Position numbers and translations under genes: made by a program
Virus record (IMG/VR): IMGVR_UViG_3300007523_000002
Location: 1 to 41,849 of that record
Source of the DNA: a virus
Direction: 5' to 3' (one strand)
DNA length: 41,849 nucleotides
Part shown: piece after piece, positions 3,164 to 10,078 of the stretch
Numbering within the stretch: the first letter of the stretch is position 1
Layout: the number at the start of each line of letters is the position of its first letter
Notes under the pieces: model-generated
The model's input: the letters and a program-made list of their open reading frames with translations, nothing else
Told to the model about the DNA's origin: nothing
Database searches by the model: none

Positions 3164-5605
3164 CTAGCAAAACATGAAGGGAGATTTAAGCACTTCATTA
3201 AGGTCAAACGAACCTTTTTCGGGTACTTTAATATCTGAACCTTCCTTAATAATCACAGTACTGGCCAGCTTCCCAAGCAAATCATCTTGATTCATCTTGA
3301 CAAATTGCTCACGTAGTACCGTGTGTAAGTGGTCTACATCACATGGGTGGGTAGCAAAAGAATCATGGATTGGTAGGATTTGGCAGTCAGCAGCATCAAT
3401 AACCATACACAAATGCGCGCCATCAGCGCTATGAATAAAGTTAGGGGAGATACCAGATACTGCTGAGCGAGCATCGTATTCACCAGTATAAATGCTACAT
3501 ACAGCGTCTGTACGACCCATACTACGGATCATAATACGCTTCTGTTCCTTCTTCTCAACCCAGTTAACTACAGGCATACCTACAGGAGAAACCCATTTAA
3601 TAGGGTAGTTGGTGCAGCGTACAAGCTGTTGTAGGTACTTCATACCGTCGTATGCAGCAGGCACTGTACAGGCTACACCTGCACGAATTGCTTTACCGAT
3701 ACAACCAACCAGCTTCTTATGTGTGTACAAAGGATTACCTTGGTCATCAGATACAATGGGCATATCCATAGCCATCATGTCGTCAATCAAGTACTCCATG
3801 GTACTCTTCAAAGTACTACCATAAACGTAAGTCATCACGGGCCGCTTAGCCATACCGCGTGTGATTTCCTTATCTCTCCAGTACCGCTGAACTACAACAT
3901 CTGTAGTCTGCTCGTTTTTAATACCATCAGCTACAGCACCTACGTGTTTATAAATATCTGACTTCTGGTCCAGATTGTTATCAATTAGGTTGGTGTGTAA
4001 AGCTCCAATAGGATCACGTAGCATCGCAGAGAAGTGCTGCAAGCCTGAACAAGTAGCATCCATAGCAACAGGAACATGGCATACATACTCATGTGGATTC
4101 TTACTTGAGAGTGCAGCAGTTAACGCCAGCATAGCTTGGTACAAAGTACATGCAGTCTCTGGCTCTGGTGCGTCTACAGTAATAGGATTCTCCATGAAGT
4201 CGGTAAGGAGTTCCATGTTGTCCTCAGTCCACTTAGCTTTAATCTCTGGCAAGTGCTTATCAAAGCCAGCAGAGTTGGCTACATGAACCTTCAGCCAGAA
4301 CAGCCCACGTTCACCAAGGGCTTTACCGTCAGCGAACTCTAAGCAACCTTTTACAGCATCGTTACTCTGGGGATTCAATGCGCTACGGAAGTATAACCGA
4401 CCACGCCAATCGACAAAGGTAGGGAAGTACAGCTCATTGTAATCCTTAAAGCGGCGTAGTTCTTTTAGCTTACTCAAGATACCTGAACTCTGACCAGCAC
4501 GTGTACGCTCCTGAGTGTGCCAAGCGTGCATGCTGTTCTTCCACTCAGCGAAGGCGTTTAGCTCTTCTGGAGTAGCTGCATCTTTAACCCAACCCTCACC
4601 AAAGGGGAACTCAGCCTTCGGTACAGGCGCTGTACGAGGCGTACCAAAGGCACCCTCACCCAAGGCTACGGCAGTGGCTAGCACGCTCATAACCTCCTTG
4701 TTAACCCGGTAAGGCACGGCCTGAGCCTTCGACATAGCGGACTTCAGCACCAGCGCCTTACCTTCCCCAAGGCCAGCGTACACCCAGCGACGGATGCTCT
4801 TAGGGGCACGTAGGCTGCAAAGCTCAGCCCGTACCTGATACCATGATGTGAGGTAGCCACCATCTGTGAGGCCATGCCGGGGCAGTGGGGGTACGATCAT
4901 AGGAGGAAAGCGGACAACACTCTTAGCAGACTCTAGCGCTTTATCTAGGTGTTCTGCAAGGGCATCAGATGGGCGTATAATTTGAGTAGGTTTAATCTGC
5001 TGCTTACCAGTACGGTGATCCACAAACAAGAATAACCCAGTCTCGAACAATGCAGTCATAAGGATACGGCCAACATTCAACTTCTCAACAGCAGACCAAC
5101 CATCCCATTCAATCTTTAAAGATGTAGCTGCTGCATTGAAGGTACGACTACGATGGCGTAGGTTATCAGTGCCAGAGTCTTTCAGGTAAGCTAGTGTCTT
5201 ATCTAGGTACACAGAGTTCCTAGCATCAACAGCAGCAATCAAAGCCTCAGTCTCTACTAGCTGACCAAGGTTACGAAATACGTCTTGTAGGATAGGGGAC
5301 TTCTCTTGAGTACAGAACCCAAGAGCTGCCCGAATACCTGCGACAACAACAACATCAATGTCTACACGTTGAAGTAGCTTGAAGTACTTACCAGCTATAC
5401 CACGACCACCACAACTATTAATACGCCCTTCAAGAGCAGTCTTAGTAGCTGCGTAAGCACGTGTGATAATACGCTTGCCAATGCTGGTATCAGCAATGCG
5501 ACCACCATCAATAGCATCTTGTGTTTGTTTAATACTAGCCAAGATACTTTCATGGCTGTACTGCTTTTCAATGTCAATCTGCTTTTGATATAAGTCAGCG
5601 GTCAT
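3164..5605 (-). CDS. T7-type single-subunit DNA-directed RNA polymerase
   Basis: An 813-residue enzyme of the T7 RNA polymerase family (T7 gp1: 883) that would transcribe the phage late genes from phage promoters. Palm motif A is at about residue 513 (MDATCSGLQHFSAM, catalytic Asp). The O-helix motif B is at about 583 (KRPVMTYVYGST, with the Lys, Arg and Tyr expected). Motif C is at about 745 (LPIHDSFATHP, second catalytic Asp). SPNFIHSADGAHL precedes motif C as in T7. The C-terminus is hydrophobic (SPFMFC), like the FAFA foot of T7. It lies after the DNA-metabolism genes and before the virion genes, as in phiKMV and unlike T7. Confidence 0.98.
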   Translation of the reverse strand: MTADLYQKQIDIEKQYSHESILASIKQTQDAIDGGRIADTSIGKRIITRAYAATKTALEGRINSCGGRGIAGKYFKLLQRVDIDVVVVAGIRAALGFCTQEKSPILQDVFRNLGQLVETEALIAAVDARNSVYLDKTLAYLKDSGTDNLRHRSRTFNAAATSLKIEWDGWSAVEKLNVGRILMTALFETGLFLFVDHRTGKQQIKPTQIIRPSDALAEHLDKALESAKSVVRFPPMIVPPLPRHGLTDGGYLTSWYQVRAELCSLRAPKSIRRWVYAGLGEGKALVLKSAMSKAQAVPYRVNKEVMSVLATAVALGEGAFGTPRTAPVPKAEFPFGEGWVKDAATPEELNAFAEWKNSMHAWHTQERTRAGQSSGILSKLKELRRFKDYNELYFPTFVDWRGRLYFRSALNPQSNDAVKGCLEFADGKALGERGLFWLKVHVANSAGFDKHLPEIKAKWTEDNMELLTDFMENPITVDAPEPETACTLYQAMLALTAALSSKNPHEYVCHVPVAMDATCSGLQHFSAMLRDPIGALHTNLIDNNLDQKSDIYKHVGAVADGIKNEQTTDVVVQRYWRDKEITRGMAKRPVMTYVYGSTLKSTMEYLIDDMMAMDMPIVSDDQGNPLYTHKKLVGCIGKAIRAGVACTVPAAYDGMKYLQQLVRCTNYPIKWVSPVGMPVVNWVEKKEQKRIMIRSMGRTDAVCSIYTGEYDARSAVSGISPNFIHSADGAHLCMVIDAADCQILPIHDSFATHPCDVDHLHTVLREQFVKMNQDDLLGKLASTVIIKEGSDIKVPEKGSFDLNEVLKSPFMFC

Positions 5606-5617
5606 ATTACTTCCTAG

Positions 5618-5878
5618 TTAGATTAAATCTTCAACAAGTTTGGCATCTTTACGCTCAAACTCAATCAGCATGTTGATGCAATGTTTAGCCTTCTCCAAGT
5701 CCTGAATACCACCCTTCTGCCGAAAGCGCGAGATATACTTGATAGCCGTGTGCTGGCAGGCGTCCATCCCATTAGCCATGCTGTACTCCATTGGCTGAAT
5801 CTTCATACCCTTGTAATGTCCACCACCAACCTGAATGTCTAATGGATTAATAGCATCAGTACTAGATGAATTGTTCAT
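5618..5878 (-). CDS. DUF3310 family protein (phage nucleotide-kinase-like)
   Basis: An 86-residue protein with the DUF3310 signature. VGGGHYKGMKIQPMEY is at about residues 17-32, followed by HTAIKYISRFRQKGGIQDLEKAKHCINMLIE. This small family is common in phage genomes and is sometimes annotated as SaV-like nucleotide kinase, with no proven activity. It overlaps the ThyX stop by 17 bases and ends 12 bases before the RNA polymerase start, and an AGGA ribosome site for the polymerase lies in that gap. Its neighbours suggest a role in nucleotide metabolism; this is inference. Confidence 0.85.
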   Translation of the reverse strand: MNNSSSTDAINPLDIQVGGGHYKGMKIQPMEYSMANGMDACQHTAIKYISRFRQKGGIQDLEKAKHCINMLIEFERKDAKLVEDLI

Positions 5879-6515
5879 TCAAAGCACCCCAACAGTTAGG
5901 GTATAATTGATAAATAATAGGCTGTAATAGCTTAGCGAACTCTTGGGCTGCTAATTGAGCATGCGCATCAATACGCTGACTGATTACACGATGCATAAAC
6001 AACAAGGAACCTGTCCACATAAAATTAGTCATAGTGTTCAAAGGTAGTACCATTCGTGCTTCTTCAGGAGCAACTCTATATAAAAGCATATCTTGGTATA
6101 ATTCTAAAGCCGCCATTGAATGATCCCGAATACTATCTAGATATTGTGCTGAGCAATCATGCTCATAACCAGAACCTTGCTTAACACTATCTGGTCTTGT
6201 ATGCAAAACATCTGGAAAATAGAACTCTGGTTCTGTGTCAATGTAGCGTCGAGATTCCTCATTCCAATTACCACCTACTTGGTGCTTTACTAATTGTCGA
6301 GCGATGAACAGTGGTACTTTACAACGAACAGTAATACAAGTATGAGCAAAAGGACTCCAATGATTATGCTTAGCAAGATACCGAAGTAAACCTGTATCTC
6401 CCGTAAGACTAAACTCTTGTACTTCTTTAGCAAAGGATACACGCGCTGCATTGACGACATTAACATCACTACCCATGTGGTCTACGTACTTTACAGCAAT
6501 AGGTGCTTCAATCAT
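5862..6515 (-). CDS. thyX: Flavin-dependent thymidylate synthase ThyX
   Basis: Converts dUMP to dTMP with FAD, NADPH and methylene-tetrahydrofolate. The ThyX core is present in a divergent phage form, FIARQLVKHQVGGNWNEESRRYI. NE-x-S-x-R-Y is intact but the leading RHR is KHQ. Other family marks are NAARVSFAKE near the start, LRYLAKHNHWSPFAHT, and WTGSLLFMHRVISQRIDAHAQ near the end. I prefer the ATG at 6515 (217 residues), which has GGAG 7 bases upstream; an in-frame ATG at 6545 has a poor site. It follows ribonucleotide reductase, fitting a dTTP supply role for phage replication. Confidence 0.93.
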   Translation of the reverse strand: MIEAPIAVKYVDHMGSDVNVVNAARVSFAKEVQEFSLTGDTGLLRYLAKHNHWSPFAHTCITVRCKVPLFIARQLVKHQVGGNWNEESRRYIDTEPEFYFPDVLHTRPDSVKQGSGYEHDCSAQYLDSIRDHSMAALELYQDMLLYRVAPEEARMVLPLNTMTNFMWTGSLLFMHRVISQRIDAHAQLAAQEFAKLLQPIIYQLYPNCWGALNEQFI

Positions 6516-6616
6516 TCCATAACTCCGGGTCTTGTTGACTACCATGATGCAACACGTACTCTTCAGTACGTGGCATTATCCATAGGTTAATAGGTGGGAA
6601 TTGAAACTCTGCCCAC

Positions 6617-7545: not shown

Positions 7546-8290
7546 CGTTATATTCAATATAGTTCGTTAGGCTATACCCGTTCTCTTATGAACTGCTGCA
7601 TATTCCTATGCAGACTAGACTATATCATGACCACAAAGTGATCCGCACCGCTTCGAGCCACTTGGCCCTACTCCATAAAGGATAGTCGTTACACGTTCCG
7701 TGTGATTGTCGTTAATATAAATTAAATATGTGTATAGGTCATACGACTACAAATTTTATGTACTGTCTGGTAAGTGATACCAAATAGTTTACCTAACTCG
7801 TAGTAGTTTTTACCTTGTGCACGTAACTGACGTAACGCAATAACATCTGCATCTATTAGCTTACTATTAGGCCGATTACTTCCACGTGGAACAAGACCTA
7901 TTTCAACTGCATGCTTGTTATTCTCTAGTCCAGTTACCCACTCTAAGTTCCAGTGGTTATTATTAGCTTTATTACCGTCCTTATGATTTACCTCTGGCTT
8001 ATCTTCCGTATTCGGAATGAACAACCCTGCGATCAATCTGTGAACTAAGTAAGTCTTCGCTTTAGTATCAACGTACAATCTAACAAATTGATAGCCTCTT
8101 TTATTAGTATGCACATACAACTGTTTCCCAGTGTAGTTACTAATAATGCTACCTTGTTTAGTGATAATGTAATTCTTATACATTAAAGTCTCCTATGTTT
8201 TAAGAGACAATCACACGGCTTCGCTCGGTATTGGCCGTTCTGGCTATCCACCGAATTCAATGCGTTTTACATCCGCTATTTAGAAATTTA
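7546..8290 (-). ncRNA. Group I self-splicing intron in nrdJ
   Basis: A 745-base intron whose ends I placed from RNA pairing and protein alignment. The 5' exon ends AUCCGU and pairs with GCGGAU about 15 bases into the intron, with U-G at the splice site (P1). The intron ends in G at 7546. The P7 strands GACUAU (complement of 7682-7687) and AUAGUC (complement of 7618-7623) pair exactly, in contexts typical of the R and S elements (AACGACUAUCC; GAUAUAGUC). A perfect 13-base helix (8206-8218 with 7698-7710) closes the loop that carries the HNH gene. Splicing restores NPCCEIAL across the junction. Subgroup is probably IA, by the R element. Confidence 0.92.
7722..8183 (-). CDS. Intron-encoded HNH homing endonuclease
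   Basis: A 153-residue endonuclease. The HNH_3-type core is at about residues 48-92 (HRLIAGLFIPN, then VNHKDGNKANNNHWNLEWV and NNKHA). The N-terminal strand region is NUMOD4-like (the scaffold seen before such HNH domains), and the C-terminus (residues 108-150) is a helix-turn-helix DNA-binding tail (YYELGKLFGITYQTVHKICS). It would cut intronless nrdJ alleles and spread the intron. It has its own ribosome site (TAGGAG, 6 bases from the ATG) inside the intron, so it can be translated from unspliced RNA. It lies in the loop of a 13-bp intron helix, outside the catalytic core. Confidence 0.92.
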   Translation of the reverse strand: MYKNYIITKQGSIISNYTGKQLYVHTNKRGYQFVRLYVDTKAKTYLVHRLIAGLFIPNTEDKPEVNHKDGNKANNNHWNLEWVTGLENNKHAVEIGLVPRGSNRPNSKLIDADVIALRQLRAQGKNYYELGKLFGITYQTVHKICSRMTYTHI

Positions 8291-9224: not shown

Positions 9225-9523
9225 TATGCGGCGTCCTTAATAAAGATACCGTTAACAGTTTTACCAGTGCGCTTACTAATTTTAGCATAAGCACGCTTGT
9301 AGCACTGCTCAATAGTAAGACCTTGTTGGGCAGCGATTACTGTAAGTACAACCAGACAATCCCCCAACTCATCTTCGATACTATCAATATCCTTAGCCAT
9401 AAGCGCCAGCATCAATTCATCTTTTTCTTCCGCGAGTTTAACGTACTGCGCTTCCCACGTACTATCTGTGATTAAACCCTTAGCGTCAGCCCATGCTACT
9501 ACTTGCTCTGATGTACGATTCAT
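9224..9523 (-). CDS. MazG-like nucleotide pyrophosphohydrolase
   Basis: A 99-residue all-alpha NTP pyrophosphohydrolase. The metal-binding pattern is EEKDEL (about residues 32-37) followed by DELGDCLVVL (about 51-60), the EExxE...ExxD arrangement of the MazG/dUTPase-like family. It could cleave (d)NTPs to (d)NMPs, or lower ppGpp as suggested for cyanophage MazG. It starts at 9523, overlapping the endonuclease VII stop by 4 bases, and is coupled to nrdJ. Substrate cannot be read from sequence. Confidence 0.85.
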   Translation of the reverse strand: MNRTSEQVVAWADAKGLITDSTWEAQYVKLAEEKDELMLALMAKDIDSIEDELGDCLVVLTVIAAQQGLTIEQCYKRAYAKISKRTGKTVNGIFIKDAA

Positions 9524-9945
9524 TTAGCTTGCTCTCTTAGTTTTAGTTTTGCTTTACGAACGGCTGCTGCTCTGTCCGCTTTCTGCTTAGTTACCGCAGC
9601 TTTCTCTTCTACTGTTTTATGATCCGGGTACAGTACTCCACAACCCGGTTGCTTCAGATACTCCAGCATACGCTCAAGCCAAGGGATTAGCTCTGAGTAA
9701 GACATACTCTTAGCACCCCAGCGACCAGCAGCGTTTGCTACTTTACCTTCTGCTGCGTTACACGAACGATGTAGTACACCACGAATTTCACCAGTCTCAT
9801 GGCAATGGTCTACTACATAGTCCGACTTGTTACCCATTACTTGAAAACTAATAGGCTTATTACACAAGCTACACAAGCCACCCTGCTTTAGCTTCAAGTG
9901 CCCTGCTGCCCATGCCCTAAGTGAACCCCTAGGTATCTTTCGCAT
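9520..9945 (-). CDS. Endonuclease VII-type (His-Me finger) nuclease
   Basis: A 141-residue Holliday-junction resolvase-like enzyme of the T4 gp49 / phiKMV gp23 family. It debranches replicating DNA before packaging. Zinc Cys pair CSLCNKP is at the N-terminal third, the catalytic core is YVVDHCHETGEIRGVLHRSCN (D-H and the downstream His/Asn), and the tail is Lys/Ala-rich. The ORF is open from an ATG at 9984, but the ATG at 9945 has AGGGG 5 bases upstream and fits the family start better; the extra 13 residues overlap the small gene at 9929-10078. It follows the exonuclease as in phiKMV. Confidence 0.92.
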   Translation of the reverse strand: MRKIPRGSLRAWAAGHLKLKQGGLCSLCNKPISFQVMGNKSDYVVDHCHETGEIRGVLHRSCNAAEGKVANAAGRWGAKSMSYSELIPWLERMLEYLKQPGCGVLYPDHKTVEEKAAVTKQKADRAAAVRKAKLKLREQAK

Positions 9946-10078
9946 AAACACCCCTATACACATCCCAGTGTTGTATCGCTTCATTGGCAGACATTTTATT
10001 GTCGCGTACTTCTCTGAGTAGCTGTACTAAAAATGCAACTGCTTGTGTGTAGTCTTCAGGCTTCATCAGTGTACTCAT
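9929..10078 (-). CDS. Small hypothetical protein, 49 residues
   Basis: ATG at 10076-10078, TAG at 9929-9931. It overlaps the exonuclease end by 23 bases and the endonuclease VII start by 17, filling what would otherwise be a gap. A ribosome site (AGGA) lies about 9 bases upstream. The product is helix-prone (QAVAFLVQLLREVRDNKMSA) and ends in an aromatic stretch (HWDVYRGVYAKDT). No family recognised. The stop/start packing is the main support. Confidence 0.65.
   Translation of the reverse strand: MSTLMKPEDYTQAVAFLVQLLREVRDNKMSANEAIQHWDVYRGVYAKDT

Follow-up and report, generated by a model that had tools for sequence, protein, structure and literature searches.

What becomes of an enzyme when the codon for its catalytic radical cysteine is cut in two? 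The question is raised by nrdJ, the gene for a class II (B12-dependent) ribonucleotide reductase (RNR), in a podovirus-like phage known from the IMG/VR record IMGVR_UViG_3300007523_000002, the whole of which (41,849 nucleotides) was analysed and is called “the window” below. Here a 745-nt group I intron on the minus strand, from 8290 to 7546, interrupts the gene within that very codon. Judging from its sequence, it is almost certainly a td-like phage group I intron, predicted to self-splice so that the radical-cysteine codon is restored, and probably mobile, homing by means of an HNH endonuclease. The architecture of the intron, the reading frame across it and the recurrent use of its insertion site are directly visible. 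Taken alone, the window intron is a known kind of element; the part for which no earlier report was found in the open-access literature is that the nrdJ radical-cysteine codon is a hot spot for group I introns (subscription papers lay mostly outside the search, and priority is unproven).

A Split Codon in nrdJ

The gene stands in a podovirus nucleotide-metabolism block, recognizable by its neighbors (a phage RNA polymerase gene at 3164-5605, a thymidylate synthase gene at 5862-6545, and an endonuclease VII-like gene at 9520-9984) together with T7-like structural genes. Open reading frames, spliced translation and protein alignment delimit two exons, both on the minus strand. Exon 1 (9224-8291) encodes residues 1-311 plus the first base, T, of the Cys312 codon, and ends in AAT CCG T (WGTNP plus T). 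Exon 2 (7545-6617) starts with GT TGT GAA ATT, thus supplying bases 2 and 3 of the same codon, and runs to the stop codon, carrying the C-terminal CSGGVC pair on the way. The original prediction had placed the exon joint exactly here, and the reading frame agrees: the two exons form a single open frame of 620 amino acids that includes NPCCEIAL and contains WGTNPCCEIALEPYQMCNLTE, the predicted junction running across CCGTGTTGTGAA. Left unspliced, the message reads NPLNF and then stops, three codons into the intron, again as foreseen.

Which residue is it that the intron divides? The best comparison is with the Lactobacillus enzyme RTPR (PDB 1l1l, E 9e-32), on which the window protein had been expected to match N406, C408, E410, C419 and the C731/C736 pair, and does. 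GTNPCCEIAL aligns on GTNPCGEISL, the loop of C408, so that Cys312 is the radical cysteine and its codon is split T|GT, between the first and second bases. C419 aligns with MCNL and the pair C731/C736 with ACSGGVC; with N406 and E410 also in register, the protein has the residues of a class II enzyme. The tripeptide FNC at residues 86-88 is a candidate for C119, which lies outside the printed part of the RTPR alignment. Many relatives have the codon intact: no insert divides it in any of the 80 closest viral genes for NrdJ (at most 75% identity) or in three isolates, and the intron boundaries follow directly from comparison with these empty sites. An intein was considered for the window insert and rejected, as the insert is not open through the gene and its RNA helices covary.

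Architecture of the Intron

The RNA has all the parts of a group I intron (all coordinates on the minus strand). P1 is formed by the internal guide GCGGAU (8276-8271) and the exon end AUCCGU (8296-8291), with a U-G pair at the 5′ splice site. The 5′ strand of P3, CGCAUUG (8264-8258), pairs with CGGUGCG (7650-7644); P4 (8255-8250/8229-8224) encloses P5 (8244-8242/8236-8234), and P6 is extended by 13 base pairs (8218-8206/7710-7698). P7 (GACUAU/AUAGUC, 7687-7682/7623-7618) spans a region holding P7.1, P7.2, the 3′ strand of P3, and P8 (7643-7638/7634-7629), while P9, P9.1 and P9.2 occupy 7613-7555 and the intron ends with its omega-G at 7546. The P1, P7 and terminal G named in the original prediction are thus all in place. 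Once the open reading frame (ORF) in P6 is cut out, minimum-energy folding recovers P1, P3, P4, P5, the P6 extension, P7.1, P7.2, P8, and P9; P7 is a pseudoknotted helix, which this kind of folding cannot display. Given P7.1 and P7.2 between P7 and P3, and a td-like P7 and 3′ domain, we take the intron to belong to subgroup IA2, judging by the known anatomy of that subgroup.

Would a group I covariance model recognize it? Only in part: RF00028 of Rfam matches 7596-7791 (E 4.4e-5 in the 1-kb stretch searched), but with 28.6 bits, below the curated cut-off of 50, and at gathering thresholds Rfam found nothing in the whole window. The low score is probably due to the 462-nt ORF in P6, since the related intron of locus L213, which bears an ORF, scores 29.1 bits and the ORF-less one of L214 83.2. 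With a sub-threshold match and covariation at hand, the lack of a gathering-threshold match was not counted against the intron.

It is covariation that confirms the assignment. When the window intron is aligned with seven homologous phage introns, mostly from polymerase, primase and structural genes, 97.8% of cells are paired and 14 pairs are changed on both sides; the covariation score is 0.416, against 0.127 for shuffled alignments, and slid registers of the helices are all at most 50% paired. The helices therefore covary across homologues, and the group I match is more than chance. In locus L088, for instance, P3 is replaced by CAGAUUG/CGGUCUG. Covariation supports the core from P3 to P9 with its P3/P7 pseudoknot, except that P7 itself is invariant but for one cell, and is thus supported by position and conservation rather than by covariation. 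Comparison with the L213 intron, which lies at the same nrdJ bond and shares ancestry with that of the window so that the two are not mutually independent, shows 18 of 74 pairs differing on both sides, among them compensatory changes in P4 and P5, with only two breaking, both end pairs; the 13 base pairs of P6 are retained with mostly different sequence, and the region from P7 to P9.2 is likewise upheld. The pattern used to locate L213 and L214 takes a td-like 3′ end at the C408 site for granted.

The Radical-Cysteine Codon as a Hot Spot

How often is this codon used? The survey comprised 206 loci with nrdJ, followed by pattern scans. About 30 further viral records, some of them near-duplicates, have an intron that splits the C408 codon exactly as T|GY; since the scans presuppose certain intron ends and the records are partly redundant, these numbers do not measure how common such introns are. 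Among the surveyed loci that had not been chosen by intron pattern, eight viral ones, from about six distinct viruses, carry a C408 intron, and no group I intron was found elsewhere in nrdJ, besides the one in L097/L098. Two named isolates are concerned, Pseudaeromonas phage KLEP7 (230 nt) and Roseobacter phage CRP-118 (172 nt); in CRP-403, the sister isolate of CRP-118, the codon is uninterrupted.

By similarity of their cores, the same-bond introns fall into three types, with HNH, LAGLIDADG, GIY-YIG or no endonuclease. Type A, the td-like one, includes the window and L213, both with HNH, and L214/L215, which lack an endonuclease; bacterial genomes, searched for type A introns of this site, returned seven matches, none of them in nrdJ. 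Type B comprises KLEP7, without an ORF, and L102, L103/L104 and L174, with LAGLIDADG_2 proteins; its pattern is also matched by L259, which carries a 246-aa ORF and places such an intron in a gene that most resembles the window nrdJ. Type C includes CRP-118, L133 and others; CRP-118 is among those with no ORF, while L143 and L203 have a GIY-YIG gene. Type C introns have no match in Rfam even at E 0.5. Their P3, P5, P8, and P1 nevertheless covary (13 pairs changed on both sides, none of 500 shuffles scoring as high), and type C is therefore group I as well. The intron at 2426-2597 of L006 and others of this type are compact, 172 nt long, covary well and are missed by Rfam; they may form a family absent from its library.

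Did these introns arrive one by one? When 103 NrdJ proteins are placed on a tree, the presence or absence of the C408 intron switches ten times (counted by parsimony on a quickly built tree, losses perhaps included), every intron gene adjoins intronless ones, and type B is spread over the distant CRP-like and KLEP-like clades. This scatter fits horizontal movement into a fixed site, and separate arrival of the three types is likely. Rather improbable is that the types descend from one ancient C408 intron and diverged while exchanging endonucleases. They do share the bond, the omega-G and the guide GCGG (GGGG in one virus type), and short core stretches are common to types A and B. However, types A and C give no blastn match at E 1e-3 and differ in layout between P7 and P3. 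In addition, each has a relative at another nrdJ site: a td-like relative of type A lies after C419 in phages CRP-7 and RHph_N3_13, and one of type C lies 4 nt away in L097, so that cores do move between sites.

The hot spot offers a clean natural example for an old idea, that mobile introns take up positions where the host DNA is least free to vary; that introns and inteins prefer conserved sites is already established (PMC2814812). Three intron types, with endonucleases of three families, have entered a catalytic codon at a single bond, 2 nt upstream of the place taken by a split intein.

The HNH Endonuclease and Probable Homing

Within the P6 loop, an ORF on the minus strand (8183-7722) encodes a 153-aa HNH endonuclease (Pfam HNH_3, E 1.1e-9), preceded by AGGAG. 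It lies entirely in the loop and leaves the core undisturbed, as expected of an HNH homing endonuclease, and a homologue occupies the same intron position in L213. Used as a query against the viral collection, the protein found only three relatives, all distant, and it may be inactive.

For the window intron, splicing activity, endonuclease cleavage and homing are what we infer from these features. The RNA would fold and pair its guide with the end of exon 1, external guanosine would drive the cut after the U of that exon, and exon 1 would be joined to exon 2 behind the terminal G, so that the radical cysteine regains its TGT codon. Intronless nrdJ is most likely cut close to the site by the HNH protein, repair then copying the intron in. 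The C408 site would be favored because the DNA of the active-site loop is almost invariant, hence a dependable target, and because the enzyme would stay working only after exact loss of the intron. That imprecise loss would be lethal, as the original prediction has it, is an assumption, since phage NrdJ may be dispensable in some hosts.

Alternatively, the HNH gene could be a mere passenger in a self-splicing intron that spreads by descent or general recombination rather than by homing. This is unlikely: introns without endonuclease genes, of all three types, do persist at the C408 site, but the window and L213 share both intron and HNH gene although their neighbors in the nrdJ tree are intronless, endonuclease genes of three families (HNH, LAGLIDADG, and GIY-YIG) are each found in introns at one bond, and type B introns occur in far-apart nrdJ clades. 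Least credible of all is that the window intron is decayed or splicing-deficient, with NrdJ a pseudogene or two separate peptides: the early stop of the unspliced frame would suit this, but all core helices and the features of the splice sites are still in place, maintained from homologue to homologue by compensatory change, and both exons are open and retain all catalytic residues checked.

The intron guide and the end of the exon are matched to each other. Of 190 uninterrupted genes, 26 have CCG as the Pro407 codon, as against all 11 intron genes first examined, and these 11 have a GCGG guide stretch near the intron 5′ end. In L232, L239 and L241 the codon is CCC and the guide GGGG instead of GCGG, which restores P1. 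Co-conversion during homing and selection on P1 would both give this fit, and such covarying codons and guides make the exon constraint measurable.

Comparison with Known Systems

With the phage IA2 introns of the T4 td/nrdB family that carry HNH genes, and with the DNA polymerase intron of Phormidium phage Pf-WMP3 (PMC3428280), the window intron shares its core, P7.1 and P7.2, the 3′ end motif GAAYAUAACG, and an HNH ORF. It differs from them by its host gene, a class II reductase, and by its site inside the radical-cysteine codon. When the window intron was used as a blastn query, homologous introns came up in podovirus DNA and RNA polymerase genes.

RNR is the phage nucleotide gene interrupted most often. 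Group I introns are found in the large-subunit gene nrdE of Staphylococcus phage Twort, where sites near functionally important residues have been described (PMC3653736), and nrdE of Lactococcus phage LW81 has multiple interruptions and an HNH gene. Might these class I reductases share the hot spot? Measured with E. coli NrdE as the query, the Twort sites are some -141 and +200 codons away from the radical cysteine of the class Ib enzyme, and those of LW81 about +81 and +200, far from its codon; the idea was not supported.

Closer to our site is NrdJ-1, the split intein of marine phages with native exteins NPC and SEI (PMC13123727). Locus L222 (GTNPC|CLVGSS) confirms that such an intein sits right after the C408 codon. 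Like the window intron, it belongs to the self-splicing elements and interrupts the same loop in NrdJ of phages; in contrast, it splices at the protein level, 2 nt downstream of the intron bond, and from two separate gene halves. The introns of CRP-118 and KLEP7 are group I and use the bond of the window intron, but belong to other types and encode no endonuclease. Both nrdJ genes were deposited only as two reductase ORFs, and the CRP-118 paper mentions no intron. A 2013 survey (PMC3653736) names phiYS40 and P60 as phages with split nrdJ, without describing either gene as intron-interrupted, and lists inteins in two nrdJ genes from metagenomes. A consequence of introns at this codon is that some marine viral reductases stand in the records as two fragments and may escape surveys that insist on an unbroken active site.

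Other Insertions around the Active-Site Loop

The C419 codon is also followed by introns. Roseobacter phage CRP-7 (L007, 2455-3213) and Rhizobium phage RHph_N3_13 (L221, 1221-1923) have td-like group I introns directly after it; each carries a related ORF of no confident Pfam family, annotated in RHph_N3_13 as a sigma factor decoy. In L238 and L243 both positions of nrdJ are occupied by group I introns, and all that is left between them is a micro-exon of 35 nt, whose first bases belong to the C408 codon and whose last codon is that of C419. With both introns removed, the frame of L238 reads GTNPCSEIILRPYQFCNLSE, and in L226 the two-intron arrangement is visible from the 3′ side only. Just the tail of an endonuclease-like gene is left in the second intron of L238 and L243.

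Could splicing then control the enzyme? A bold proposal would be that the viral class II radical-cysteine codon is a general landing site, reached independently by unrelated splicing elements, and that in some phages splicing acts as a switch holding the reductase inactive until growth state, temperature, oxygen or cobalamin allow exact joining. We regard it as distinctly improbable. Were it true, the viruses of L238, L243 and L226, in which the C408-C419 loop is a 35-nt micro-exon, would need two splicing events for activity.

In L097/L098, a type C-like intron lies in codon 409, 4 nt downstream of the C408 bond, with its own matching P1, which suggests a local shift of site. An insert in L112 (1901-2808), which directly precedes the C119-like codon and was first taken for an intron at the third active-site cysteine, turned out to be an intein in frame with NrdJ. 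L211 was left out of the near-site introns, since its insert is placed 7-11 codons upstream and contains an HNH ORF whose arrangement is unclear; this ORF (136-659), HNH or endonuclease VII-like, is within nrdJ just upstream of GTNPC. L235 and L075, finally, contain pieces of the nrdJ C-terminal part, either rearranged or a second partial copy, within the gene or downstream of it.
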